From the NCBI GenBank assembly GCA_002713215.1, contig PAVO01000019.1:248001-312000 (forward strand): a DNA stretch of 64,000 nt, in the 5' to 3' direction. The notes below the pieces were generated by a model. That model ran no database searches, was not told the DNA's origin, and was given only the letters and a program-made list of their open reading frames with translations. Shown here one piece after another: positions 39,531 to 61,896 of this stretch; positions within the stretch are counted from its first letter, which is position 1, and each line of letters starts with the position of its first letter. The position numbers and the translations under genes are program-made. This DNA comes from Crocinitomicaceae bacterium (GTDB lineage: Bacteria; Bacteroidota; Bacteroidia; Flavobacteriales_G; Salibacteraceae).

Positions 39531-41060
39531 TTATAATATTGGGCTTGAACCATCGACAGACTTCACCTTTTTCACCAGATAATCAAGCCCAATTATTTCG
39601 CCACAGGTTTTGAGGGCACTTATACTAACTCCCAATATTCCATGAAGATTTAAATTCTGTCCTGTAAGATAAAGGCCTTTTACTCGAGTGCTTGGCTTAA
39701 ACATGCTACTCAACGGAGAGTTACAATCATTTTGGATTCCATACATGCTACCATCAGGTGAACCAATATAATCGCGGTGAGACAGGGGAGAAGAGGTATA
39801 AATATGTTCGGTATTATCTTTCACCTCAGGCAAAACTTCATAAAGCCGATCAAGAATCTTTGCTGCTTTTTGTTTTTTAAATTCTTCGTACGATTCACCT
39901 CTAAAGGTAGGTGTTGCCACGGTATTAAATGTATTCGCCCATTCCTCAACGTCTTCATTATTCATATACACCAATATGGAAAGTCCACTGGCAAACTCTT
40001 CTGATTTCTTTTTGCTAGGGCAGGAGACCATTATCGCTTTAGGCCAGGAATCCTCAGTATATTCATTAGTATGCCATACATCGGGTTGGGTGAAGTGGTA
40101 TATGTTATGCTTTAAGTATTTTATTTTATTGGGTGTAAGTACCAAATGCACTGAGAAAGAGGCTATGGAATTGGGAGTTAGTTTTATTCGTTGCAAGGTG
40201 GCATTTCTTACTCCACCGTCCACCCAATTGTAGGTACTAAGAGGGTGGGCATTAGAAATAACATTAGGCGCCAAATAATTTTTACCATCAGCGGTAGAGA
40301 CACCGGTAACCTTTCCATCTAGTGTATTTATCTTATTTACTTCTGAATATCGCTTAATGGTTCCTCCTAAACGACGGATGCTTTTAGCCAATAACTGGGC
40401 AATCTGGCTGCCACCACCTTTTATCTTATGAGAACATTTTATATATGAGTTGCAAATCAGGGCATGGACATAAAACGGAGTCTTTTTGGCATCTCCTGCG
40501 TACAAAAAGTTATTACCGGCAAGTACGGCTCGAAGTGTTTCATTTTCGGTGCAAGAGTCAATAAAGTCTTTTGCGTTTAGAGTTAAGACTTCTTCAGTTG
40601 GTTTAACTTCTTCATTTCTTAAATTGTAAAATGGGAATTGCAGGCAACTCCATTTCATTTTGTCAATGTATTTCCTTATCCCTTCCCGCTCCTTTGGGAA
40701 TTGACTAACCAGGGAATTTTCAAAGGCCTCATATCCTTGTGCCCATGGATATTTTACCGGATTACCCTGGAATGAAATAATATCAAACCCATTTGGGTCC
40801 ATTTCCTCCAACTCCAGGCGGTTCATAATGCCGTGGTAGCTTAAAATGTGATTTAAGTTGTGTCCTTTATTAAGGCCGCCAATATAGTGAACCCCTGTAT
40901 CGAATATTACTCCGTTTCGTGCAAAAACCTGAAGGTTTCCTCCAATTTGATTGTTCTTTTCCAGCACCAAAACCTTATGCCCTTCCATAGCCAGTGTATT
41001 GGCACAGAGCAGACCTCCCAGACCGCTTCCAATTATTATGGTGTCGAAATTGTTATCCAA
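39531..41060 (-). CDS. FAD-dependent desaturase/isomerase-like oxidoreductase (CrtISO/phytoene desaturase family)
   Basis: 509 residues. The N-terminal dinucleotide-binding motif is IIIGSGLGGLLCANTLAMEG with the acidic end VLEKNNQIGGN. GVHYIGGL and a C-terminal GLYLTGQNLNLHG resemble carotenoid isomerase/retinol saturase-type enzymes. It may act on the polyene chain, for example in isomerisation or reduction; inference from the locus. The start is TTG at 41060, as there is no ATG before the FAD motif, overlapping the MMPL gene by 8 bp. Last gene of the flexirubin run. Confidence 0.85.
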   Translation of the reverse strand: MDNNFDTIIIGSGLGGLLCANTLAMEGHKVLVLEKNNQIGGNLQVFARNGVIFDTGVHYIGGLNKGHNLNHILSYHGIMNRLELEEMDPNGFDIISFQGNPVKYPWAQGYEAFENSLVSQFPKEREGIRKYIDKMKWSCLQFPFYNLRNEEVKPTEEVLTLNAKDFIDSCTENETLRAVLAGNNFLYAGDAKKTPFYVHALICNSYIKCSHKIKGGGSQIAQLLAKSIRRLGGTIKRYSEVNKINTLDGKVTGVSTADGKNYLAPNVISNAHPLSTYNWVDGGVRNATLQRIKLTPNSIASFSVHLVLTPNKIKYLKHNIYHFTQPDVWHTNEYTEDSWPKAIMVSCPSKKKSEEFASGLSILVYMNNEDVEEWANTFNTVATPTFRGESYEEFKKQKAAKILDRLYEVLPEVKDNTEHIYTSSPLSHRDYIGSPDGSMYGIQNDCNSPLSSMFKPSTRVKGLYLTGQNLNLHGILGVSISALKTCGEIIGLDYLVKKVKSVDGSSPIL

Positions 41061-44000
41061 TTTTCTTTTTAATGATTACCAGGTCTTCACCTACTTGTTC
41101 TCTTTCCGATTCAACCAATTCGGGTAGCTGTTTGAATTGGGCTAAAATTAAAGAACATGAATCGTTCATTTTACCATAAGCCTCATTGACGATGAAATTT
41201 AAATCTTCCTGCTCCAATTGTACAAGCTCGGCACAAATGATAACGTATTCTAGGTTAGAATAATCAACATCATTTTGCATCAGTTGTAAATTACTCTGTT
41301 CATTTTTATTGAATGAGAAACAATTTGAAGCAATTTTTAGTTCATTTTCATTTTTAAAAAGGCCAGTTACCAAACGCTTTGCATTTCTGTAGGTAAGAAA
41401 CATAGCCAATAAGCCCAATCGATCTCCAATTACCAGGCTCTTGCATTTGTCAGGGAGGAAGTTATTGATGGCATCAAATACGTGATGATGTGTATTTAAT
41501 ATAGAACGACATTCTTTTTCAAGATCATTGCCTTTATAAAGGTAATTATTCAGTAACTGCCTTTTGTAGAAATTCACATGCTCATAATCCTGTCTTACCT
41601 GGTAAAACTCCTTTTTGAAGTACCTGGAAATCGATTTGTATCGTTCCCTACCATTCTCTCCCCAACTTAAGTCGTTGTGTTTAATGGTGGGTAATGTCAA
41701 GACCTGAACAAGCTGGCTGTTTTTTACAATAAAGTCATCGCCCTTTGACAAAGTTTGACCGTAGCCATGTAATATAATAGGAACAATGTCGAGTTGAAGT
41801 TCCTGGGCAATGTAAAAGGCCCCCTTATGAAATCGGCTCAATGCTGGTGTTGTACTGCGTGTTCCCTCAGGAAAAATACAGATGTTATATCCATCTTCTA
41901 TTTTTTTCTTCAGGTGGGGCAGTGCGTCATCAATACCTTTGGAAACCGGATAAAAACCAATGTACTGGACTACTTTTCCAAAGAACGGTGAATTATAAAC
42001 CCAATCATTAGTAACTAAGATATTTTTGGGATACATCCCCAAAAGCACCAGGATGTCAAGAAAACTTTCATGGTTGGCAATGATGATAGAAGGCTTAGCA
42101 AAACGTTCTTTAGAGGGAAATTTAAGTGTTTGGGGAATCTGTACCTGGCTTGCGGTTATTATTCTAAGCCATTTTGAAGAATACCAATTGACCAATTGCT
42201 TTTTGAATTTCTTTTTTACAGGAATCAAAGGCAAAATAAGATAGCCCATGATGAATGCTATGATACAACCCAGCACAAAAAAAGAAAAGGTTAAAATCGT
42301 ATTGATTAAGGTATAGGTAGTGTAGGGCTCAACACCTCGCTGGCTACGATTTACTATCAAGGTGCGAATCAAGAAGGTTTGTAATGTAAACGAGATTAGT
42401 ACGGCAATTCCAATTCCAAGAATGCTTATAAATGCCATAGAATACAGGGCGGGGTGTTTGGCCAATATTAAAGCCCCAACTCCGCAAACGGTGGTTAGTG
42501 CAGAAAGCAGAATAGACACCTTGTAAATGGAAACTTTCCTTTCCCCGGTTTTTAATTCATGGAGCAGGCCGGAAGTGATAAAAATGGCGTAGTCTATTCC
42601 CAGCCCAAATACCAGACTCGAAACAATGATGTTGAATATATTGAACTGAATGTTGAACATACTCATGATTCCAGTTACCCAAACCCAACTAATCACTACC
42701 GGTAATAAGGTTAGAAATGCCAATAAAGTATGCCTGAAAAAAAGAATTAGAATGATGAACACGGCAAGCAGGGAGGCCCAGATCAAACTAGAAAAGTCTT
42801 TTTGAAGTGAGGTAACTATGCTGTTGGTAAAAGCTGCCTTATCGAAAACAAAAACTTCCTTTTGGTTGAGGTACTCTTTAACTTCTTTAATCGGTTCATC
42901 TTTAATCCTTAGTGGATTAAAAACGACATGTAGACCATCTTTTTCTCCGATGAAGGCTCCAACATTTAGAGCTTTTAATTCGAGTAGATCATCGAGGGTG
43001 TAAGGTTGGAAATTGCTCCAGATAAATAAGGGGAAACGTTTAAACGCTGTAGGCTTAAACTTGTATTGTTCACCTGATGCAGCAAGTGCATCCATGGTTC
43101 TTCTAACCCTGGCGTCGGTCCAAAAAGTTTTCCAGCGTTGCCGCCTCTTGTTTTGTTCTTCTTCCGGGAGTAGTAAAACGGAGCTGTTTGCAAATTCAAG
43201 GGTTGAAAATTTATCCTTAAGGGTGTTCAAAGATTTCCCAACCTCTAAATTGTTGCGCAATGCCTCCTCTTTTGATGCTCCTTGTGCTATTAAATAGACG
43301 GTTTTTTCCGAATACCCGTTTATTGCACTAAGCCTGGTTTGTGCTGCGCCTAATTCATCGGACAAATAGTTCATCTTTTGCATGTCACCATCGAAGCGAA
43401 CATTTTTAAAGAAGAACAGACAGATTATGGTTATTACCACTACCGACCCAAGAACGATGAAATTATTATGGATTGGATACTTGCCAATTTTTGACAGAAT
43501 ATCGCCCTTTGGCTTTTCGGGGTTTGTCTTAAAGGGTTTAATTACCTGTGAAAGAACGATCAGTGTAGCAAATGCAGCACCTATAACGCTAAGCCCTGCA
43601 AATAACCCCAAATCTGTCAGTGCATCCGATTTCACCAAGGTCAGGCACAGGAAGGCAGAAGCAGTGGTTAGGCAAGAGGTAAGAATGGGCCGAATGGTCG
43701 CAGAAAGTACTGCCCTGGTATCGTTTTCTTCCTTAAAGTGATTTAGAAAATGCAGGCTAAAATCGATGGTAATTCCTACGATCATAGAACCAATTCCCAG
43801 TGATATGGCTGAAATGGTTCCCTTGTATAAGTAGAGTACCGATAGCGCAAATAACCCTCCAAATAACATGGGAGTAAACAGGTACAGAATGGTAGCAATT
43901 TTCCGGAAATAAGTGGTTAGAAAAATGAGTAAGAGGGTAAACGCAATGGCTACGGTTGTTTGGATATCTGATTTTATCCGCTGAGCATTACCAACTGCTA

Positions 44001-44760
44001 CAGCTGTGGTTCCAAAGTATTCACCACGCACGTTGGCAGAGTTTAGAACGGCAAGCGATGAATCTATGCTGGACAGCAGTTGGGCATTTTCTGTAGTTTC
44101 ATTGGGTTCATTTTTTGGAATAACCCACATTAATAAGTGCTTATGATCCCTGGATAAGAAATATCCCTGGTACACTTCAATGTTGTCGTCTAGCTTTAAT
44201 TGAGCCAATTTGTTTAATCCCAGCGAGGTTAGGTTTAGGGGGTCTTTTAAGAATAGAGGGGCGCTCCATGCTCCTGCAGGAGTCATTAAAAGTTGATAGC
44301 CATTGGTAACCGATTGATCTATGTTTTCCTTGGTTAATCGATCGGCAATTGAATCATAATCCGATTCTTCCAATAGAAGGGGAAGATGATCCTGTACAAA
44401 TGAAAAGATCTTGTTTTCCTGTTCTTCAGATAGTTTGTACTCCAATTCCCGAATTAATCCTGAATCAGGGCTGTTGTTCAGAATATTGGTGAGCGAATCG
44501 GCATAGTTGGTAAGTAACTCAGGGTTTTCCTCTTCGGAGTATACATGAATAAACAACCGATCCATGAACCCGGATGACTCAATGGTTTGATTAATTCTCA
44601 TAATGTTGGCCTTGTCGGGCAACATTCTGGAAATGTTTTCTTCAAATTCCAGCCGTGAAGCCAACCATCCGAAAAGAAATAAAACCGAAACCAGGATTAA
44701 AGCAAATAGTGCTCTCCTGGTTTTAAAGTAGAGGTAAATATTTATAAAAACCTTTTCCAA
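41053..44760 (-). CDS. MMPL exporter-PlsC acyltransferase-methyltransferase-like fusion
   Basis: 1235 residues with three parts. Residues 1 to about 835 are an MMPL/RND-type exporter with about 12 membrane helices in two sets and two large periplasmic loops. Residues about 880-1075 are a PlsC acyltransferase with NHESFLDIL (catalytic H-x4-D) and FPEGTRS. The last 150 residues have a Rossmann-like look (KSLVIGDRLGLLAMFL, RLVTGLFKNENELKIASNCF) of a methyltransferase, but the glycine-rich SAM loop is replaced by IGDRLG. The MMPL part probably exports the pigment or its lipid-linked form, as in aryl polyene loci. The start is TTG at 44760, directly after an in-frame stop. Confidence 0.88.
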   Translation of the reverse strand: MEKVFINIYLYFKTRRALFALILVSVLFLFGWLASRLEFEENISRMLPDKANIMRINQTIESSGFMDRLFIHVYSEEENPELLTNYADSLTNILNNSPDSGLIRELEYKLSEEQENKIFSFVQDHLPLLLEESDYDSIADRLTKENIDQSVTNGYQLLMTPAGAWSAPLFLKDPLNLTSLGLNKLAQLKLDDNIEVYQGYFLSRDHKHLLMWVIPKNEPNETTENAQLLSSIDSSLAVLNSANVRGEYFGTTAVAVGNAQRIKSDIQTTVAIAFTLLLIFLTTYFRKIATILYLFTPMLFGGLFALSVLYLYKGTISAISLGIGSMIVGITIDFSLHFLNHFKEENDTRAVLSATIRPILTSCLTTASAFLCLTLVKSDALTDLGLFAGLSVIGAAFATLIVLSQVIKPFKTNPEKPKGDILSKIGKYPIHNNFIVLGSVVVITIICLFFFKNVRFDGDMQKMNYLSDELGAAQTRLSAINGYSEKTVYLIAQGASKEEALRNNLEVGKSLNTLKDKFSTLEFANSSVLLLPEEEQNKRRQRWKTFWTDARVRRTMDALAASGEQYKFKPTAFKRFPLFIWSNFQPYTLDDLLELKALNVGAFIGEKDGLHVVFNPLRIKDEPIKEVKEYLNQKEVFVFDKAAFTNSIVTSLQKDFSSLIWASLLAVFIILILFFRHTLLAFLTLLPVVISWVWVTGIMSMFNIQFNIFNIIVSSLVFGLGIDYAIFITSGLLHELKTGERKVSIYKVSILLSALTTVCGVGALILAKHPALYSMAFISILGIGIAVLISFTLQTFLIRTLIVNRSQRGVEPYTTYTLINTILTFSFFVLGCIIAFIMGYLILPLIPVKKKFKKQLVNWYSSKWLRIITASQVQIPQTLKFPSKERFAKPSIIIANHESFLDILVLLGMYPKNILVTNDWVYNSPFFGKVVQYIGFYPVSKGIDDALPHLKKKIEDGYNICIFPEGTRSTTPALSRFHKGAFYIAQELQLDIVPIILHGYGQTLSKGDDFIVKNSQLVQVLTLPTIKHNDLSWGENGRERYKSISRYFKKEFYQVRQDYEHVNFYKRQLLNNYLYKGNDLEKECRSILNTHHHVFDAINNFLPDKCKSLVIGDRLGLLAMFLTYRNAKRLVTGLFKNENELKIASNCFSFNKNEQSNLQLMQNDVDYSNLEYVIICAELVQLEQEDLNFIVNEAYGKMNDSCSLILAQFKQLPELVESEREQVGEDLVIIKKKIG

Positions 44761-50562: not shown

Positions 50563-50820
50563 TTATGCGTTTTTGTGCTCGGTTATGAATTCGGCAATTG
50601 AACGAATCGATAAGAATATTTTTTGACCTTCCTTTGGGTCTTCTATTTTTATTCCGTAGTGTTTTTCCAATAATACGATTAATTCCAGTGCATCAATTGA
50701 GTCAAGCCCAAGTCCATCTCCGAAAAGCGGATCATCAGCATCAATATCTTCAGGAGACATGTCTTCAAGGTTTAATTGATCTATGATTTGTTCCTTTAAA
50801 TTTTTAATTAAATCTTCCAT
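50563..50820 (-). CDS. Acyl carrier protein
   Basis: 85 residues, acidic, helical. The phosphopantetheine site is Ser41 in GLGLDSIDALEL. Lies between the half ketosynthase and the active ketosynthase, so it presumably carries the polyene chain. One of two ACPs in the locus; the other is at 60414. Confidence 0.94.
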   Translation of the reverse strand: MEDLIKNLKEQIIDQLNLEDMSPEDIDADDPLFGDGLGLDSIDALELIVLLEKHYGIKIEDPKEGQKIFLSIRSIAEFITEHKNA

Positions 50821-52983: not shown

Positions 52984-54261
52984 TTAATCTCTTTTTAAAG
53001 TTGAAAGCGCAAATGTAATCCCAAATAGTGTGATTAAAATGGAGGCCGGAATCAATAATTCATAAATAGTGGAACCTCTTACAATTATGCTATAATATCC
53101 TTCTAAGGCCCAATACAAAGGCGAAAACTTCGCAACTATTTGAAGCAAACTTGGCATTACAAAAACCGGGACCCAAACTCCGCCTAAGGCAGCCATAATT
53201 ATAACGGCAATACTACCAAAGGATGCTGCTTGGTCCCTTGTCTTACTCCATTTACCAATAAGAATTGCCAAGCCGGCAGAAGCTAAGGATATAGGAATGG
53301 TAAACAGCAGCAACAATCTGAAAGATCCATTAATCACCAATTCGGGAAGTCCCAATATTGGCATAAGCCAAAACCCCAGGGCCAAAATAACCACCAGCTG
53401 AATTTCACTGATAAACACATAGGTGAGTGCTTTTCCTAAAACCAGAAGTCCGGTATGGACGGGTATTGTTCTGAGTCGCTTATTTACTCCACTAATTCGT
53501 TCTTCTACTATTCGCTGAGAGAATGAAATAATTATAAAAAACATGGCGAAAATTGACCAGGCCGGAACGTTGTGCTGAACCGATGATGGGAGCGATCCGC
53601 TACCACCTTTAAAAATGTACTCATCTTCAAAACCTATTATCGGTTTTAATTTCAACTCTGAATTGCCAGAGGGATTATAAGGAAATCGGGCTGCTAGCTT
53701 TGATCGAAAAGCCTGAAAGCTATATTGTGTCTCTAACTCATTAATAATTCCCATAATTCCATTGGAGATGCTGGTTTTGAACGTGGCTTTTGTAAGGGGA
53801 TCAAATATTAAATTGACTGTGATGGGTGAATTCGAAACGGTCATTTGGTTTGAATCAGCTAGCCCAAAATCAGCTAAAAGACTGTCTACTCGTCCTTTGA
53901 TTCTGGATTTAAATTTCTTATGGAAATCCTTAGGAATAATTATTCCGACCTGATATTCTCCATCAGAGATCAGTCCTTTTCCCAGTTCAGCATTAATTGG
54001 CTTATCGCCTAAGGAATCTACCAACTCGAAATAGCCCGAAGTCTCCAATTCTGATTTAATGGAATTAGAGCTTTTTGTATCGTCGTTGTCAATCCAGATT
54101 ACCTGAACCTTTTCATTGGAAAAAACGCGAAAGGCGGCATCCTGAATGTAGGTCATCACCACAACCAACAGGGCAGGCATTATAAAGAGTAGTGCAAGAC
54201 CTGCCTTGTCACGAAGCAGAAGCAGCAATTCCTTTTTTATTTCAGCCCAAAGAATTTTCAC
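52984..54261 (-). CDS. ABC-2 type transporter permease
   Basis: 425 residues. An N-terminal helix (LALLFIMPALLVVVMTY) is followed by a long extracytoplasmic segment (about 40-230) and then five helices, including GGVWVPVFVMPSLLQ. This is the ABC2_membrane/DrrB-like layout. Start is GTG at 54261, three bases from the ATPase stop. With the ATPase it probably exports or flips a pigment intermediate. Confidence 0.88.
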   Translation of the reverse strand: MKILWAEIKKELLLLLRDKAGLALLFIMPALLVVVMTYIQDAAFRVFSNEKVQVIWIDNDDTKSSNSIKSELETSGYFELVDSLGDKPINAELGKGLISDGEYQVGIIIPKDFHKKFKSRIKGRVDSLLADFGLADSNQMTVSNSPITVNLIFDPLTKATFKTSISNGIMGIINELETQYSFQAFRSKLAARFPYNPSGNSELKLKPIIGFEDEYIFKGGSGSLPSSVQHNVPAWSIFAMFFIIISFSQRIVEERISGVNKRLRTIPVHTGLLVLGKALTYVFISEIQLVVILALGFWLMPILGLPELVINGSFRLLLLFTIPISLASAGLAILIGKWSKTRDQAASFGSIAVIIMAALGGVWVPVFVMPSLLQIVAKFSPLYWALEGYYSIIVRGSTIYELLIPASILITLFGITFALSTLKRD

Positions 54262-54263
54262 AA

Positions 54264-55013
54264 CTACAAATCCCGATAATGTGATCCGGTTAACTCAAGG
54301 AAAACCTGTTGCAACCCCTTTCCCGAATCCTTTAACAAATCACCCATCTTACCATGGATCATTTTCTCACCTTTATCTATGATAAGAATTTCATGGCAAA
54401 AGCTCTCAGCTTCAGCCAATAAATGAGAGGTATAGATTATGGTAATCTTTTCTTTCTCGTTTAACTCAGTTAGGTATTCAAGAATCGCGTTCCGACTTTG
54501 GACATCAATTCCTTCTGTTGGCTCATCCAAGAAAAGTAGCTGCGGTTTATGAATAAGGGCCGCGATTAGGTTTAATCTTCTTTTCATTCCTCCACTAAAC
54601 CGTTTTACCGGTTTATTTCGAACGTCCCAAAGTCCAAATTTTTCGAGCAGTTCTTTGGATCGTGTCTTAAATTTTTCGCCACTTATACCGTAAAGCGAAG
54701 CAAAATAACTAAGGTTTTCTAGTGGAGTCAGTAATTCGTATAGAGCAATTTCCTGTGGTGCTACGCCTATTTTTTCCTGGAGTTCATTGCGATACAGGTC
54801 TTCTGTGTTTTCACCCAGAATTTTAACCTGACCCGATGTTCGGTCAAATAACCCGCTGAGAATGGAAATGAGTGTAGTTTTTCCGGCACCGTTAGGGCCT
54901 AATAAGCCATATATACTACCCTTTTGTACCGTAAGAGAAACTGAGTCCAATGCCTTATAGCCGTCCTTGTATACTTTGGTCAGGCCTAGAACATCTATTG
55001 CAGTTTCTGGCAT
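54264..55013 (-). CDS. ABC transporter ATPase
   Basis: 249 residues. Walker A GPNGAGKTT near 40-48, signature FSGGMKRRL, Walker B LLFLDEPTEGID. DrrA-like type that partners ABC-2 permeases; the permease follows at 54261. Overlaps the BtrH-like gene by 1 bp. Confidence 0.93.
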   Translation of the reverse strand: MPETAIDVLGLTKVYKDGYKALDSVSLTVQKGSIYGLLGPNGAGKTTLISILSGLFDRTSGQVKILGENTEDLYRNELQEKIGVAPQEIALYELLTPLENLSYFASLYGISGEKFKTRSKELLEKFGLWDVRNKPVKRFSGGMKRRLNLIAALIHKPQLLFLDEPTEGIDVQSRNAILEYLTELNEKEKITIIYTSHLLAEAESFCHEILIIDKGEKMIHGKMGDLLKDSGKGLQQVFLELTGSHYRDL

Positions 55014-56011
55014 TAGATTGCCTTTTTTAGACCGGTAAAGATTTCTTTTTCCATGTCAGCAATTTGCAACAGGATGTCGGCACTGGCCGCATAATTCTCA
55101 CCGGATTTTTCCCTGGCTTTATATATTCTGGCCGAACTTATCGCAAACTCCCGCCAAAGATCGCCACAAGCAGTCATTTGTTCTGAGAGTTCGTCCAAGG
55201 CACTTATTCCCAAGACCTGGGCTGCTTCCTGAAGAAATGCAGCATACATAAAACGAAAACCAGCACCCCCAGTTCCAATTTCTTCCTGCATTCTGATAAT
55301 GGCACCAAGGTATAAAGCGGCCTTCTTATTTCCATGTTTGTCTGGCCACTTTCGAACATCTCCTGCTAGTTTTTTAATGCCTTTTACTCCAAAAAATGGA
55401 ATGGGAATTCCAAGCATATCACTACAGGCTTTCTTAATTCCTTTGCTTACAGCGACTTCCAGATTTACACTTTCAGGTACGTTAACCGGATAATAGATTT
55501 GCCCTTTCGGCGCAAATATTCCTTTAGCAAACCTCACACGTTGCAATTCTTTGCTCGTAAGCGTAGTAGAGGTTTCCATTACCGGATCGCTTATCAGGTA
55601 ATTATCACCTTCTTTTCCAAATACAACCAGGTTGTGTGCATTAAAATGAAATCGGTAAGGATCGGGAAAATAAGACAGGTGAAATACACCTACTTGTAAC
55701 CCAACCGGCTTCCCTTGCTCCAATGCCTCATCCAAATCCCGCATGGCTTTTTTCGGATTGCGGTATTTCTTACGATAGATACTTAGCCCCAAATTTTTAG
55801 CGGCTCGTTTAAACACCAAGCCTGGCATTGGTCTAAAAGACGAACCAGGAGCATGATTTACTTTAACAAACGGCAAGTATGAAAAGAAGATTCCTGCTCC
55901 CATGCCAAAAATTAGTGGCTCACTGGCGTCAATTCCGTAGAATTTGAACAAATTCGACGTTACCCCATTTTCGCAATGGGCAGATTGGTGGTGTTCAAAA
56001 TTTAATTGCAT
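55013..56011 (-). CDS. BtrH-like acyl-ACP transferase (BtrH N-domain plus DUF4872)
   Basis: 332 residues. The N-terminal half has the papain/C39-like BtrH pattern: Cys13 in AHCENGVTSNLFKFYG, His126 in NAHNLVVFG and Asp142 in ISDP give a Cys-His-Asp triad. The C-terminal half (about 165-332) fits DUF4872. BtrH of butirosin synthesis moves an acyl group from an ACP to an amine. In this locus it is a candidate for transferring the aryl polyene from its ACP to the dialkylresorcinol, making the flexirubin ester. That role is inference. Confidence 0.82.
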   Translation of the reverse strand: MQLNFEHHQSAHCENGVTSNLFKFYGIDASEPLIFGMGAGIFFSYLPFVKVNHAPGSSFRPMPGLVFKRAAKNLGLSIYRKKYRNPKKAMRDLDEALEQGKPVGLQVGVFHLSYFPDPYRFHFNAHNLVVFGKEGDNYLISDPVMETSTTLTSKELQRVRFAKGIFAPKGQIYYPVNVPESVNLEVAVSKGIKKACSDMLGIPIPFFGVKGIKKLAGDVRKWPDKHGNKKAALYLGAIIRMQEEIGTGGAGFRFMYAAFLQEAAQVLGISALDELSEQMTACGDLWREFAISSARIYKAREKSGENYAASADILLQIADMEKEIFTGLKKAI

Positions 56012-56012
56012 A

Positions 56013-56417
56013 TCAACTTGTGGGGAAATCTTTTAAGTCTGAGAATTCTATTCTTAGAATTTCGGCATATTCTTTAAGAACATCGTCTTCCAATTTATTA
56101 AAGAATTTTGGCTTCATGTGACGTTTGACAACCCGTTTGGATAGTTCCATATAATCGGCAAGCAATGCTGCGTCCATGTACCTTGCTTCCATGAAATAAG
56201 CCAGTGGACTTAACTTACCTTTAATAACCTTTTCTTTTACTTTTTCTGCGCGTTCATTAAAAAAATCGAGTGCGTGCTGAAGTGCAGCGTTTTTTGGATC
56301 CCAGCCGGTACTTAACCCCGTTATATAATTACCATTTTCATCAACTGCATAACATAAATCTCGTGTTTTGCCTTCGAGTAAATTGGCGTCATCTTGTGGA
56401 ATTTGATCTTTTTTCAT
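56013..56417 (-). CDS. Unknown small protein in the flexirubin locus
   Basis: 134 residues, soluble, no signal peptide. It begins QIPQDDANLLEGKTRDLCYAVDENGNY. The second half is helical, with LAYFMEARYMDAALLADYMELSKRVVKRHMKPKFF, where ADYMELSKRVVKRHMK reads like a helix-turn-helix of the XRE kind, ending AEILRIEF. No family is recognised with confidence. It lies 1 bp before the BtrH-like gene and 98 bp after the dehydratase, behind a possible promoter. It may be a locus regulator, or a partner of BtrH; both are guesses. Confidence 0.7.
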   Translation of the reverse strand: MKKDQIPQDDANLLEGKTRDLCYAVDENGNYITGLSTGWDPKNAALQHALDFFNERAEKVKEKVIKGKLSPLAYFMEARYMDAALLADYMELSKRVVKRHMKPKFFNKLEDDVLKEYAEILRIEFSDLKDFPTS

Positions 56418-57450: not shown

Positions 57451-58587
57451 TTAAACTACTGTTAATAAGGCATACGCATACTGAAATCGTGCACTTTCAG
57501 GGACACAAAGGAAAATTCGCTCACCCTTTTTAAGCCTACCGGAATACAATAATTCCTCCAGCATAAGGTAGATAGAGGCGGCACCAACGTTTCCAACTCT
57601 TGATAAATTGGTAAACCATTTGTCTTCGGTTATTTCTTTTCCCAGAACTGCTAGTTCATCATGAAGCATAGACCGAAAGAATTCGGAAGAAATGTGAGGA
57701 AGGAAATAGTCAATGTTGTCTGGAGTTAACCCTCTTTTGTCCAGGGTTTCTGCAAAAAACTTGCCTCCTAAACGCATTATGTTTTCGCCTAGCAACCGAA
57801 CGTCTTGCTTAAATGCAAAGATTGAATCATTCATCCATTGAGCTTCTTCTAATTCAGACCAGCCCGAAAGGGATCCATCCTCATTCTTTACTGCTCCGGC
57901 ATACATACAAGATTCCAACTCATTGGCGTACGACTTAATGTCAATGAATTCTATTTTCAGTGACATGTCTCCTCTTGGTTCAGCTTCAAGCAGTGCTGCT
58001 CCTGCGCCATCAGAAAGCATCCAGCGAAGAAATTCCTTGTCAAATGCCAAAATTGGTTTTTCATTTAATGCCTCAGTATTTTCCGCTTCTGCTTTAAAAT
58101 TTTTGGCCATTAACCAGGTAGAGCATCTTTCTGACCCTGTTGAAACAGCATGTTCCTTATCACCAGATCCAATAGCCATGTATGCACATTTAAGCGCCTG
58201 CATTCCGGTAACACATGCTCCCATAAAAGAATTAACTTCAACAGATTTGCTATTTAGTTCGCCATGAACCATCACTGCATGAGATGGAAGAAGTTGATCT
58301 GGAGTAGAAGTACCGGAAGCTATTAAATCAATATCATCTACTTTAAAATTATCCGATTCTAACCCCTTGATGGCCTTTGCAGCCATTCCGGCATTGGTGT
58401 CCGTTATATTTAGGTTTTCGTCGATAGCGTAGTATCGATTTTCAATTTTATTGCTTCGGAGCACAACCGATTTCGATCGTGCTGGTTTGTCATATACATA
58501 TCCAAGTCGATCTTCTATTTGATCGTTGCTAACAGGTTTATTAGGAAAGAACTTAGAAATTTTATTGATATATACGGTTCTTGACAT
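57451..58587 (-). CDS. darB: DarB, KASIII-type ketosynthase for dialkylresorcinol
   Basis: 378 residues. FabH-like fold with the KASIII triad: Cys125 in FMGACVTGMQ, His near 293 in FLPHISSEF, and Asn in SRVGNVGAAS near 327. DarB joins two beta-ketoacyl units and leads to the 2,5-dialkyl-1,3-cyclohexadione that is then aromatised. The neighbour DarA supports this over a fatty acid FabH. Known from dialkylresorcinol and flexirubin clusters. Confidence 0.9.
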   Translation of the reverse strand: MSRTVYINKISKFFPNKPVSNDQIEDRLGYVYDKPARSKSVVLRSNKIENRYYAIDENLNITDTNAGMAAKAIKGLESDNFKVDDIDLIASGTSTPDQLLPSHAVMVHGELNSKSVEVNSFMGACVTGMQALKCAYMAIGSGDKEHAVSTGSERCSTWLMAKNFKAEAENTEALNEKPILAFDKEFLRWMLSDGAGAALLEAEPRGDMSLKIEFIDIKSYANELESCMYAGAVKNEDGSLSGWSELEEAQWMNDSIFAFKQDVRLLGENIMRLGGKFFAETLDKRGLTPDNIDYFLPHISSEFFRSMLHDELAVLGKEITEDKWFTNLSRVGNVGAASIYLMLEELLYSGRLKKGERIFLCVPESARFQYAYALLTVV

Positions 58588-58615: not shown

Positions 58616-59527
58616 CTATACACCCGAATAATAGGCCAGCTTTTTAGCGGTAGCTTTTCTCCTTAAGATAGCCGCAAAAGTAGATAAAATTGATATTAGT
58701 GGTGACAGGAAAAGAATGACAAAATAAAGGTATATTTCGAATAGAAATAGGGTGACTTTTCGTCCTAAACTCCCCTCTATACCTGACCAATTAATGATTT
58801 TCGCCCACACCTTAAAAACTTTCTTCGCCTTTGTCTCCATCGAAATGATCTCAAATTTTAGAGCAACTGCACCTTTTGAGACCAAATTTCTTTGAAGGAT
58901 GGGCAAATTATTACTTTCTAAACAGGTTTTTATTTCTTCGCCATAGCGTTTTCCATCTTCAATGTCCTTATTTTTTATTCCCGGTTTTGGAAACAGGTTT
59001 AACAAACGATCTGTTTTACCATGAAATAACCAATAAATAATAGTTACAACGCTAACCAGATTTGGAGACTTGTCTACTAAGGCAATGTTTCCGACTAATT
59101 TAGCATTAAGTGCCTGAAGTTTTTTCTTAATGGATTCATGAGCCATTACCCACATATTCCTTCCACCAATAACAGTGAGAACATTCGAATTGTTGAGCAA
59201 TGAAGATGCTTTGGGTGAATCTAAGAACGAGGTAAACGGCACAGAGGGAGAAAGGAACCAAACCTGATAGCCCAAAATAATTAGATCATACTGGTCGTGT
59301 TTGGTTTCAAAAGGCTTTAGGGTGTGTGGCTTTTCCTGAACGGAATCGGGCATAATTCCAAAAAACTCTTTTCTGTTCCAGGGAAATGGGAAGGGTTTTT
59401 CCATTTCTAATTTAAGGTACTCTATTTCGTAAGAAGAATCAGCAAGGAAAGGTCCTGCAATTTTTTCAAGAATTTTCAGCAGTTGCCCGGTTTGGGTATA
59501 GTAGACTATGAGGATTTGTTTTTTCAA
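58616..59527 (-). CDS. darA: DarA, dialkylresorcinol aromatase/condensing enzyme
   Basis: 303 residues. The N-terminus ILIVYYTQTGQLLKIL is a flavodoxin-like FMN phosphate loop. Further marks are DLIILGYQVWFLSPSVPFTSFL and GGRNMWVMAHESI. Two hydrophobic helices near the C-terminus (about 255-290) suggest membrane contact. DarA works with DarB, most likely oxidising the cyclic dione to the resorcinol, which fits a flavin fold. Start is TTG at 59527, right after the acyltransferase stop. Confidence 0.87.
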   Translation of the reverse strand: MKKQILIVYYTQTGQLLKILEKIAGPFLADSSYEIEYLKLEMEKPFPFPWNRKEFFGIMPDSVQEKPHTLKPFETKHDQYDLIILGYQVWFLSPSVPFTSFLDSPKASSLLNNSNVLTVIGGRNMWVMAHESIKKKLQALNAKLVGNIALVDKSPNLVSVVTIIYWLFHGKTDRLLNLFPKPGIKNKDIEDGKRYGEEIKTCLESNNLPILQRNLVSKGAVALKFEIISMETKAKKVFKVWAKIINWSGIEGSLGRKVTLFLFEIYLYFVILFLSPLISILSTFAAILRRKATAKKLAYYSGV

Positions 59528-59528
59528 C

Positions 59529-60407
59529 CTAGTTAGGTGTATTCCAAAATTGATAATAATTAAACCATTGGTAAGGATAATGGTTCAATTGTTTTTCAAC
59601 ATTTAGAATAAAATCACCTAAAATCTCTTCTGGTTTTAGGCCTACACCACTAGCTTCGTGACAGCTAAACTGGTAATGCGTTGCGGTATCCTTCATCGCG
59701 AAAACAAACAAAACCGGGACCTTAAGTTTGCTGGCAATGTCGAATACCCCTGCCGGAAATTGAGCTGGTTTGCCAAAGAAATTGGCGGTGTAAGTTTTTC
59801 CGCCCATGTGCCTGTCTCCTGTGAAACAAACCAGCTCGTTCTTTTTTACGGCTGCACCTATTTCAATCATGTGAGCTATACTGCCCTTCTTAATTTTAAT
59901 AAACTTTATCCTTTTATTAGAGCTGTCGTCAGCTAAAAATTGATCCAGCGTGTCATCTCCAGTATCAAGGGTAACCATATTCATGGGATTGTCAAGTTCT
60001 GCGTTAAGAAAATGTCCGGTTACTTCAAAGTTTCCAATATGGGCACTGATCATAACTCCACCTTTTCCGTTGTCTTCTGTTTTTTTAATGATTTCATTCT
60101 GATAAAAATCGAAAGTGAAAGAGTCTTGTAGTCCCATTGGAATAGCAAATCGATCTATGAGGGTCTGACCGAAAATAAAATAGTTTTTATAAATGCTACC
60201 CAAAGACTTTAGAACCCCATAGTTTCTAATCTTATGAAAATAGAAGAATAGAACTTTTGAAGACTTAAAAGAAAATAGAAAGTAATAAGCTGCAACGAAA
60301 AACAGTACGGAATATGCCGCCTTTATCCCGAAACGTTTTATGGTAAAAATAAAAATTTTGAAGCCCAGAGAGGTACCCTTAGATCGTCCAGTCCACTGCT
60401 CGGCCAT
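59529..60407 (-). CDS. LpxL/HtrB-type lysophospholipid acyltransferase-like protein
   Basis: 292 residues. An N-terminal membrane helix (about 27-48) is followed by the acyltransferase core, with the H-x4-E site in ISAHIGNFEV near residue 118 and later FTGDRHMGGK. Such enzymes use acyl-ACP to acylate lipids. Here it may transfer the finished acyl group to a membrane lipid or to the resorcinol; not decided by sequence. Overlaps none; ACP stop is 6 bp upstream. Confidence 0.83.
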   Translation of the reverse strand: MAEQWTGRSKGTSLGFKIFIFTIKRFGIKAAYSVLFFVAAYYFLFSFKSSKVLFFYFHKIRNYGVLKSLGSIYKNYFIFGQTLIDRFAIPMGLQDSFTFDFYQNEIIKKTEDNGKGGVMISAHIGNFEVTGHFLNAELDNPMNMVTLDTGDDTLDQFLADDSSNKRIKFIKIKKGSIAHMIEIGAAVKKNELVCFTGDRHMGGKTYTANFFGKPAQFPAGVFDIASKLKVPVLFVFAMKDTATHYQFSCHEASGVGLKPEEILGDFILNVEKQLNHYPYQWFNYYQFWNTPN

Positions 60408-60413
60408 ATGTAG

Positions 60414-60665
60414 TTATACGGTTTGGCTTACTTTATTTTCGATGTAATCGTAAAAATCTTTAAGGGTTGCAATGCTCACAAAATCTTCGCCTTTTACCTT
60501 GAACCCAAAGTATTGTTCTATAACCACAACTAAGTCAACATAATCCAAACTATCTAAATCTAATGTTTCTTTCAGATTAGCGTCTGGAACAATGATATCT
60601 TCATCAACTTCGAACTCCTCAACCAGGAATTCGTTCACCCGCATTTCAATTTCCTCTCGTGTCAT
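60414..60665 (-). CDS. Acyl carrier protein
   Basis: 83 residues from the ATG at 60665, four bases after the ketosynthase stop. A longer frame to 60758 was dropped since it overlaps the ketosynthase and adds a non-ACP leader. Phosphopantetheine Ser39 in LDLDSLDYVDL. Strongly acidic and helical, as usual. Confidence 0.93.
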   Translation of the reverse strand: MTREEIEMRVNEFLVEEFEVDEDIIVPDANLKETLDLDSLDYVDLVVVIEQYFGFKVKGEDFVSIATLKDFYDYIENKVSQTV

Positions 60666-60669
60666 TAGC

Positions 60670-61896
60670 TTATCTTTCAAACTTTTTGACGATGATGGAT
60701 GAATTAGTTCCACCAAAGCCAAAAGAATTCGACAAAAATACATCAATATTGTGTTCAAGAGTAGTTGCCTGAAGGTTCAACCCCTGAACGGCTTCATCAG
60801 GATTTTCCAGATTTATATTCGGTGCTACAAAGGAATTTTCCATCATTAGCATTGAATATACCAGTTCGCTTGCTCCTGCCATCCAACATTCATGGCCGGT
60901 CATGCTTTTTGTAGAAGAAACCGGTGGTTTAGATTTTCCAAAGACTGCGTTTATTGCCCGCCCCTCGTTGGCATCTCCTATAGGAGTAGAAGTTGCATGT
61001 GCATTTATATAGTCAATGTCAAACTCTGACATTCCAGCCATTCCCAATGCCATATTAAGTGATCGGGTTGGTCCATCAACGTTGGGGTTTGAGATGTGGT
61101 CACCATTCGAAGAAAAACCATAGCCCATTACTTCTCCGAGAATTTTAGCGCCTCTTTTCTCCGCAGATTCCAGGCTTTCTAAAATTAGTGTTGCTGCACC
61201 TCCGGAAGGAATTAATCCGTCTCTATCCTGGTCAAAAGGTCGTGAAGCTTTTGTTGGGTCATTTTCACGCGTTGAGAAAACGCCAAGGCCATCGAAACTT
61301 GCCATAGAATAAGCATTGATCTCCTGTGCACCCCCACAAATTACTATGTCTTCGTAGCCTTGTTTGATCATCATTAACCCAAGTCCAACAGAGTGCGACC
61401 CACTGGCACAAGCCGCACTAACGGTAAAATTGATTCCTTTCAACTTAAATATAGTTGCCAAATTCATGGTAACGGTTGAATTCATCGACTGGAATATTTT
61501 TCCGGAACCAACCATTGTCGTGTCCTTTTTCTCCCGAACAATGTCTATGGACTCCATTACTGCCCGAGCAGAGCTATCATTTCCAAAAATAATTCCCGCA
61601 ATGTTACTGTCCAGGTATTCTTGCGTAATACCAGCTTGATCTAATGCCTCCAGTGTGCTCATGTAGGCATATTCAACTTCTTCGGCCATACCAACACGTT
61701 GGCGTCGTTTCAATAACTTTTTAAGATCAGGCCTTTCCACCATACCCGTTAAGGCAGATCGAAAACCCATATCCTTACGCTCCCGATCAAAGATAATTCC
61801 CGATTTTCCTTCTCTAAGAGATTTGGTTACTTCTTCCCGGTTTGTTCCCAAGCAAGAGTAAATTCCAAGGCCGGTTATGACAACTCTTTTATCCAT
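60670..61896 (-). CDS. Beta-ketoacyl-ACP synthase (FabF-type)
   Basis: 408 residues with intact catalytic residues: Cys in VSAACASGSHS near 163, His in NAHATSTP near 300, His in MTGHECWMAGA near 335. It shares TAATG with fabG. Located first among the ketosynthases in transcription order, after the ammonia-lyase and ketoreductase, so it may start extension from the coumaroyl or acyl primer; inference. Confidence 0.92.
   Translation of the reverse strand: MDKRVVITGLGIYSCLGTNREEVTKSLREGKSGIIFDRERKDMGFRSALTGMVERPDLKKLLKRRQRVGMAEEVEYAYMSTLEALDQAGITQEYLDSNIAGIIFGNDSSARAVMESIDIVREKKDTTMVGSGKIFQSMNSTVTMNLATIFKLKGINFTVSAACASGSHSVGLGLMMIKQGYEDIVICGGAQEINAYSMASFDGLGVFSTRENDPTKASRPFDQDRDGLIPSGGAATLILESLESAEKRGAKILGEVMGYGFSSNGDHISNPNVDGPTRSLNMALGMAGMSEFDIDYINAHATSTPIGDANEGRAINAVFGKSKPPVSSTKSMTGHECWMAGASELVYSMLMMENSFVAPNINLENPDEAVQGLNLQATTLEHNIDVFLSNSFGFGGTNSSIIVKKFER

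Follow-up and report, generated by a model that had tools for sequence, protein, structure and literature searches.

Flexirubins, orange pigments, are long-used chemotaxonomic markers of the Bacteroidota (PMC3992019), and the loci that encode them raise the question of which enzyme joins their aryl polyene half to their dialkylresorcinol half. In the literature searched, which took in few subscription papers and no preprints, we found no experimental identification of this enzyme. We approached the question from a 64,000-nucleotide stretch of the genome of a Crocinitomicaceae bacterium (GenBank assembly GCA_002713215.1, contig PAVO01000019.1, positions 248,001 to 312,000 of the forward strand; hereafter the window), in which a gene for a BtrH-related acyltransferase, DarH, is embedded among pigment genes. 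We conclude that DarH is probably the ester-forming enzyme that joins the two halves of flexirubin, an assignment with good genomic and structural support and with inferred chemistry. New here are the comparative case for the step that DarH would carry out and a natural locus, in genome G099, without the rival acyltransferases.

The open reading frame of DarH begins with an ATG at 56011 on the minus strand and ends at 55013, between the gene for DarG and that for an ATP-binding cassette (ABC) ATPase. Its features are as follows.

55013-56011, minus strand: DarH, 332 residues, a BtrH_N plus DUF4872 cysteine acyltransferase (open reading frame, PF14399, PF16169, NF053550)
55583-55978, minus strand: BtrH_N papain-like domain, residues 12-143 (Pfam PF14399)
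55031-55552, minus strand: DUF4872 domain, residues 154-327, with a conserved GTGG-x-x-F-R motif (Pfam PF16169, alignment)
55973-55975, minus strand: codon of Cys13, the presumed nucleophile (sequence, alignments)
55634-55636, minus strand: codon of His126, aligned with CtaG His128 (sequence, alignments)
55586-55588, minus strand: codon of Asp142, aligned with CtaG Asp144 (sequence, alignments)

Both domains exceed their Pfam gathering scores, BtrH_N with 163.8 bits (E value 3.2e-48; cut-off 29.7) and DUF4872, C-terminal to it, with 205.1 bits (E value 8.6e-61), and these scores lie so far above the cut-offs that chance is excluded for the domain assignment. The protein is a member of the already named family DarH, matching the NCBIfam equivalog NF053550 (DarH_acyl, 'BtrH-related acyltransferase DarH') with 482.6 bits against a cut-off of 300 and over 325 of 325 positions; it already has a name, which corrects the sequence-only reading of this DNA. 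Nothing in sequence separates the window protein from the members of NF053550, and we found no tested reaction behind the family name. For comparison, we fetched the best 80 of at least 560 loci with a DarH relative, all on contigs titled as Bacteroidota. When the window protein is aligned with orthologues from 59 of the 80 fetched loci, all 60 sequences have Cys13, His126 and Asp142, as do all 13 sequences of a second alignment, some of whose members are homologues 24-30% identical. The window's genome yielded no other BtrH_N protein; a PHROGs search with DarH gave no match, and the phage sequences searched held no DarH relative.

An AlphaFold2 model based on 60 sequences (predicted local distance difference test, pLDDT, 91.8; predicted template modelling score 0.89) places Cys13 at the start of a helix (13-24), His126 at the start of a strand (126-134) and Asp142 directly after another (137-141). 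The top 19 PDB rows returned by Foldseek are all CtaG, AziU3 or CcbD (E values 6.9e-10 to 6.0e-07). VIA-align likewise superposes the whole chain on these three proteins (291-306 residues), with Z scores of 23.9-24.7 for CtaG (291-295 residues, root-mean-square deviation 3.5-3.8), 23.5 for AziU3 and 21.8-22.1 for CcbD, while the next rows, the ComA peptidase domain among them, fall to a Z score of about 14 and cover the N-terminal domain of DarH only. The structure prediction that the sequence-only reading had put forward as a check thus returned a whole-length match to the carrier-protein-linked cysteine acyltransferases CtaG, AziU3 and CcbD, and the model gives good support to the view that the two-domain fold of DarH is that of carrier-protein-dependent cysteine acyltransferases such as CcbD and CtaG. 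Sequence searches of the PDB reach less far: the single DarH sequence found nothing at E values up to 1, and a profile of the N-terminal domain retrieved a C39-like peptidase and AziU3 first, with CtaG at an E value of 0.04. The best matches to the full profile were mostly designed coiled coils, which vanished when the N-terminal domain was used alone. In the weak profile alignment with CtaG (E value 0.04), His126 and Asp142 of DarH fall on His128 and Asp144 (134 and 150 in the numbering of the alignment, converted by hand on the assumption of a six-residue tag), and the titles of CtaG entries in the PDB name the variants C11A, H128A and D144N. The equivalence of the histidine and the aspartate is drawn from this weak alignment and the strong fold match together, and that of Cys13 with the cysteine of the relatives from its position in the fold only.

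The predicted fold of DarH is that of enzymes which pass an acyl group from a carrier protein by way of a cysteine. CtaG from closthioamide biosynthesis (PDB 9qvj and variants) resembles DarH in its whole-chain fold (Z score about 24) and in the aligned His128 and Asp144, and its acyl group has a 4-hydroxyphenyl end, as does the polyene proposed for DarH; it differs in its sequence (11-12% identity) and in having an amide product, being proposed to move hydroxybenzoate from the carrier protein CtaH to tri-beta-alanine on a second carrier protein, CtaE (PMC6772006). The lincosamide condensing enzymes CcbD and LmbD (PDB 7yn1, 9dkr) share the whole-chain fold (Z score about 22), and CcbD forms its amide from a carrier-protein-bound acyl group by a ping-pong reaction through the cysteine (PMC12945683); these enzymes differ in having a Cys-His-Glu triad, an amine acceptor and an amide product. 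CcbD binds its carrier protein through arginines 312-324 (PMC12945683). In DarH, R287, R295 and R300 are invariant and position 298 is K or R in the 60 orthologues, and these residues are C-terminal like the docking arginines of CcbD, a correspondence matched only by counting from the C-terminus. BtrH of butirosin biosynthesis, described as an acyl carrier protein:aminoglycoside acyltransferase (PMC10318531), has the BtrH_N domain in common with DarH (163.8 bits) and is likened to it by domain and description only; its aminoglycoside acceptor differs from the acceptor predicted for DarH.

If DarH joins the two halves, it should occur where both are made. We surveyed one set of 296 genomes of the window's phylum, each at least 90% complete, for DarH, DarB, LolA2, putative DarA and the polyene CoA ligase FlxY, with 14 control genomes alongside; the counts take no account of kinship. 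DarH scores above its cut-off in 23 of the 296 genomes, and putative DarA is found in the same 23, each time with at least 204 bits; a 24th DarA match, of 22 bits and interrupted by three stops (G194), was discarded as spurious. No NCBIfam model names this DarA, and the co-occurrence counts are independent of the label. DarB accompanies DarH in all 23 genomes, in 22 of them above the cut-off and in G017 with 519 bits. FlxY exceeds its cut-off in 25 genomes (the 23 with DarH plus G118 and G238) and LolA2 in 23 (21 with DarH plus, again, G118 and G238). These two extra genomes carry polyene genes and have neither a DarA match nor a BtrH_N match at an E value of 0.001 or below. The 23 DarH genomes are spread over 10 genera; in one of these, g6, DarH and DarA occur together in 10 of 17 genomes and are both missing from the other 7. 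Among the 14 controls, neither DarH nor DarB above its cut-off was found; LolA2 exceeds its cut-off in Bacteroides ihuae and FlxY in 1 of the 14. In G017, DarG and DarH lie on a different contig from DarA and DarB, with no other relative of the locus within the fetched 20 kilobases, so that the retention of DarH there is not simply a matter of operon linkage.

The distribution narrows the steps open to DarH. A foreign host expressing darA and darB produced the resorcinol found in flexirubin, according to earlier work to which section 4 of PMC3992019 refers, so DarH is seemingly dispensable for this half, and the polyene genes of G118 and G238, present without DarH, suggest that it is apparently dispensable for the other. 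Because neither half seems to need DarH, their joining is the step left for it. Alternatively, DarH might work inside the resorcinol branch, for example on a DarB intermediate that it acylates or processes, or by shielding the resorcinol; its place within the DarA-DarB-DarG-DarH-ABC block and a presence equal to that of putative DarA would fit such a role, which we nevertheless regard as quite unlikely given the foreign-host expression and the occurrence of FlxY in all 23 DarH genomes.

The other candidates for the joining step are encoded around DarH. FlxA, DarB, LolA2 and LolB2 of the window all reach their NCBIfam cut-offs, and the DarH neighbourhood is, by these family assignments, a flexirubin locus. 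Beside DarH it contains the following features.

41770-42105, minus strand: PlsC-like domain, residues 886-997 of an MMPL-PlsC fusion at 41053-44760, a rival (domain scan, genome comparison)
50563-50820, minus strand: acyl carrier protein, possible polyene donor (sequence by eye; relative in 73 of 80 DarH loci)
52984-55013, minus strand: ABC-2 transporter pair downstream of DarH, permease 52984-54261 and ATPase 54264-55013, a possible exporter
56013-56417, minus strand: DarG, 134 residues, adjoining DarH, with a weak Xre-like helix-turn-helix resemblance, a partner candidate (NCBIfam, model)
57451-58587, minus strand: DarB, ketosynthase of the dialkylresorcinol half (NF053539, 560.8 bits; cut-off 550)
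58616-59527, minus strand: putative DarA, named from its position beside DarB
59529-60407, minus strand: LpxL-like acyltransferase, a rival (Pfam, genome comparison)
60414-60758, minus strand: second acyl carrier protein, possible donor (sequence by eye; relative in 62 of 80 DarH loci)
L170:3047-4759, just right of the window: C45/AAT autoproteolytic acyltransferase, between a halogenase-like gene and FlxY

With these domains, motifs and neighbours in hand, what the sequence-only reading had said of DarH (a BtrH fold with Cys13, His126 and Asp142 inside a pigment locus) is borne out by Pfam, by the invariance of the three residues, by the AlphaFold model and by the families of the locus. That reading had also listed the LpxL-like and PlsC-like proteins as competitors, which we took up as rivals; it missed the C45/AAT acyltransferase beside FlxY, which lies outside the window.

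LpxL-like and PlsC-like families make oxygen esters of acyl chains, and both are represented in the window locus. One or both could therefore form the ester between polyene and resorcinol and leave DarH another job, such as editing or loading; an LpxL-like gene is, moreover, present in 63 of the 80 fetched DarH loci. We compared the two in 13 genomes, which include 7 of the 23 DarH genomes and leave out 16. The LpxL-like protein occurs in G118, G238 and 6 of the 7 DarH genomes, and full-length MMPL-PlsC in G238 and the same 6 DarH genomes, with the MMPL part only, carrying one stop, in G118; the two thus occur without DarA, and neither has a match in G099. A job in lipid anchoring would fit the polyene cluster of Escherichia coli, in which apeD and apeJ mutants yield late intermediates, interpreted as polyene acids with faulty attachment to their lipid anchor; the gene table available for that cluster lists no resorcinol genes, and ApeD and ApeJ are proposed to do the anchoring (PMC8253772). 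We consider it unlikely that an LpxL-like or PlsC-like enzyme joins the halves of flexirubin.

The C45/AAT enzyme could instead be the ester former, acting in the periplasm or outer membrane. It has an AAT domain (79 bits), belongs to the C45 family (235.8 bits; cut-off 85) and has an N-terminus that resembles a lipoprotein signal by eye. Across 31 genomes, long matches (at least 480 bits) were found in 22 of the 23 DarH genomes and in the DarA-less G118 and G238, with only a weak match of 28 bits in G099. The enzyme is thereby present in 24 of the 25 FlxY-positive genomes, with or without DarA. It follows the polyene and not the resorcinol, as its long matches without DarA and its near absence from G099 indicate, and we think it very unlikely to be the joining enzyme.

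G099 bears on all of these candidates, because an ester former should be present wherever resorcinol and polyene genes coexist, and in G099 the LpxL-like and MMPL-PlsC proteins have no match and the C45/AAT protein has only the one of 28 bits. Its compact locus (L069, L172) runs DarA, DarB, DarG, DarH, two ABC genes and an acyl carrier protein, with a dehydratase, three ketosynthases, a short ketosynthase-like protein, a second dehydratase, a reductase, TAL and FlxY on the opposite strand; FlxY is followed by a holo-acyl-carrier-protein-synthase-like and two esterase-like open reading frames, named by eye. No relative of the Lol, LpxL-like, MMPL-PlsC, C45, glycosyltransferase or deacetylase proteins is in view, nothing matches the thioesterase of the window locus at an E value of 1e-4, and no acyltransferase besides DarH was recognised, the open reading frames being judged without a family-library scan. 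FlxY is the only adenylate-forming enzyme recognised there, which speaks against the ligase-like FlxW as the enzyme that joins the halves. The FlxW idea, made in 2014 (PMC3992019, section 4), is the only published proposal for the joining step found in the literature searched; the section offers it as a suggestion without a test, and names as the C. pinensis counterpart of FlxY a 4-coumarate CoA ligase. To us it appears the least probable of the alternatives, with a very slim chance of being right. The genome comparison ranks DarH clearly first of the five suspects, and the candidate assignment made in the sequence-only reading emerges strengthened by the co-presence with DarA (23 of 23), the absence of DarH from G118 and G238, the competitor-free G099 and the whole-length fold match.

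In 74 of the 80 fetched loci the retrieved flank holds a DarA or DarB relative together with two or more polyene core genes; DarG is found in 77 and the ABC ATPase in 79. A comparable arrangement is described for Azoarcus sp. BH72, where the arcuflavin locus runs darA, darB, a hypothetical gene, a BtrH-like gene, an ABC ATPase, two inserted genes, an ABC permease, an acyl carrier protein and a ketosynthase, and where the proposed structure of the pigment is an ester of polyene and resorcinol (PMC3949708). The BtrH-like gene there is DarE, a 'BtrH-like peptidase', and is likened to DarH by the gene table; the locus differs in that its polyene genes are unlinked, and the gene called darH in that paper (Table 1) is a PilT-domain gene and not the DarH of NF053550. 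Within the literature searched only this paper mentions both flexirubin and BtrH, and its available part assigns no step to the gene; the available part of a paper on the Dyadobacter flexirubin cluster (PMC9606717) does not mention BtrH. The resorcinol clusters of Pseudomonas, a resorcinol-only producer, are not known to contain a BtrH gene.

Taken together, we propose that an acyl carrier protein bearing the finished 4-hydroxyphenyl polyene would dock on the C-terminal helical domain of DarH, and that Cys13, activated by His126 and Asp142, would take over the polyene as a thioester. His126 would then deprotonate one phenolic hydroxyl of the dialkylresorcinol that DarA and DarB produce, and this hydroxyl would attack the thioester to give the ester, flexirubin. 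What the analysis shows directly is the family of DarH, its predicted fold, the conservation of its residues, its gene neighbourhood and its distribution among genomes. The carrier-bound donor, the resorcinol acceptor, the formation of an ester and not an amide, and the order of the steps are all parts of the scheme that we infer.

Several points weigh against assigning the joining step to DarH. The acceptors in the reactions described for CcbD, CtaG and BtrH are amines and not phenols, and we found no biochemical or genetic proof of the DarH reaction in the literature searched. No genome among the 296 carries DarA without FlxY, so that the sole argument against a role in the resorcinol branch, as opposed to joining, is the published heterologous expression. 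The presence pattern of DarH could in part be explained by DarG and the ABC ATPase, which lie in the same neighbourhood. In six of the 80 loci the retrieved flank does not show resorcinol and polyene genes together: two start near a contig end (L091, L095) and one has resorcinol genes with at most one polyene core gene in view (L096), and in three metagenome-derived loci (L106, L109, L165) the DarH-ABC block sits amid genes that by eye appear unrelated, extending for several kilobases on both sides in L106 and L109. G099, finally, is the sole genome known here without the rivals, an 80-contig assembly known from its genes alone, and it is without LolA2, which is conserved among producers of flexirubin-type pigments according to a 2025 paper (PMC11885536). 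With LolA2 missing, pigment production or export in G099 may depart from the usual route.

Some neighbours and distant relatives deserve mention in their own right. DarG scores 151.9 bits against the DarG_fam cut-off of 70 and 159.2 bits against the flexirubin-DarG equivalog cut-off of 170, which it does not reach. Its Pfam matches all lie below cut-off, and its model (pLDDT 85.6) gives weak fold matches, none at an E value of 0.001 or below and many of them Xre-type helix-turn-helix proteins; such a likeness, with an N-terminal extension, is odd for a biosynthesis protein, and DarG could be a regulator or a partner of DarH. To the right of the window lie in turn a halogenase-like gene, the C45/AAT gene and FlxY. 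The first (L170:1793-3040) encodes a tryptophan-halogenase-like flavin adenine dinucleotide enzyme, with a relative in 29 of the 80 DarH loci within the fetched flank, and its place beside the locus suggests a chlorinated flexirubin.

DarB-like proteins in G238, G254 and G276 (380-499 bits, below cut-off and with no DarA match there), along with a fragment (G219) and a second copy (G182), were taken to belong to other pathways, and DarH homologues below cut-off (L025-L028, 152-186 bits) have no other flexirubin-locus relatives nearby except a generic reductase match beside the L027 gene. DarB-like ketosynthases are also encoded on eight plasmids. In the stretches examined of three of them (from Bacteroides, Prevotella and Pseudoalteromonas), whose gene tables are incomplete and which were not counted, there is no BtrH gene and no obvious DarA; on the Bacteroides and Prevotella plasmids (L083, L084) the ketosynthase genes have regulators as neighbours and no listed resorcinol partner. 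On a Haladaptatus plasmid, the gene for a BtrH-domain protein (L087:8001-8981) lies beside genes for kynureninase, indoleamine dioxygenase and a benzoate-CoA ligase, a set that suggests an acyl-transfer pathway in haloarchaea.

A broader reading, which we offer tentatively as one possibility, is that DarH, with its BtrH fold, makes an aryl ester by passing a completed type II polyketide directly from the carrier protein to a phenol, while the LpxL-like, PlsC-like and C45 enzymes that most flexirubin loci retain serve a second, lipid-anchored fate of the same polyene, as in resorcinol-free clusters. If so, a single locus would give flexirubin bacteria two polyene products, and G099, which has DarH only, would be limited to flexirubin. 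If DarH does join the halves of flexirubin, ester formation would be a new twist for a fold known to make amides in antibiotic pathways.

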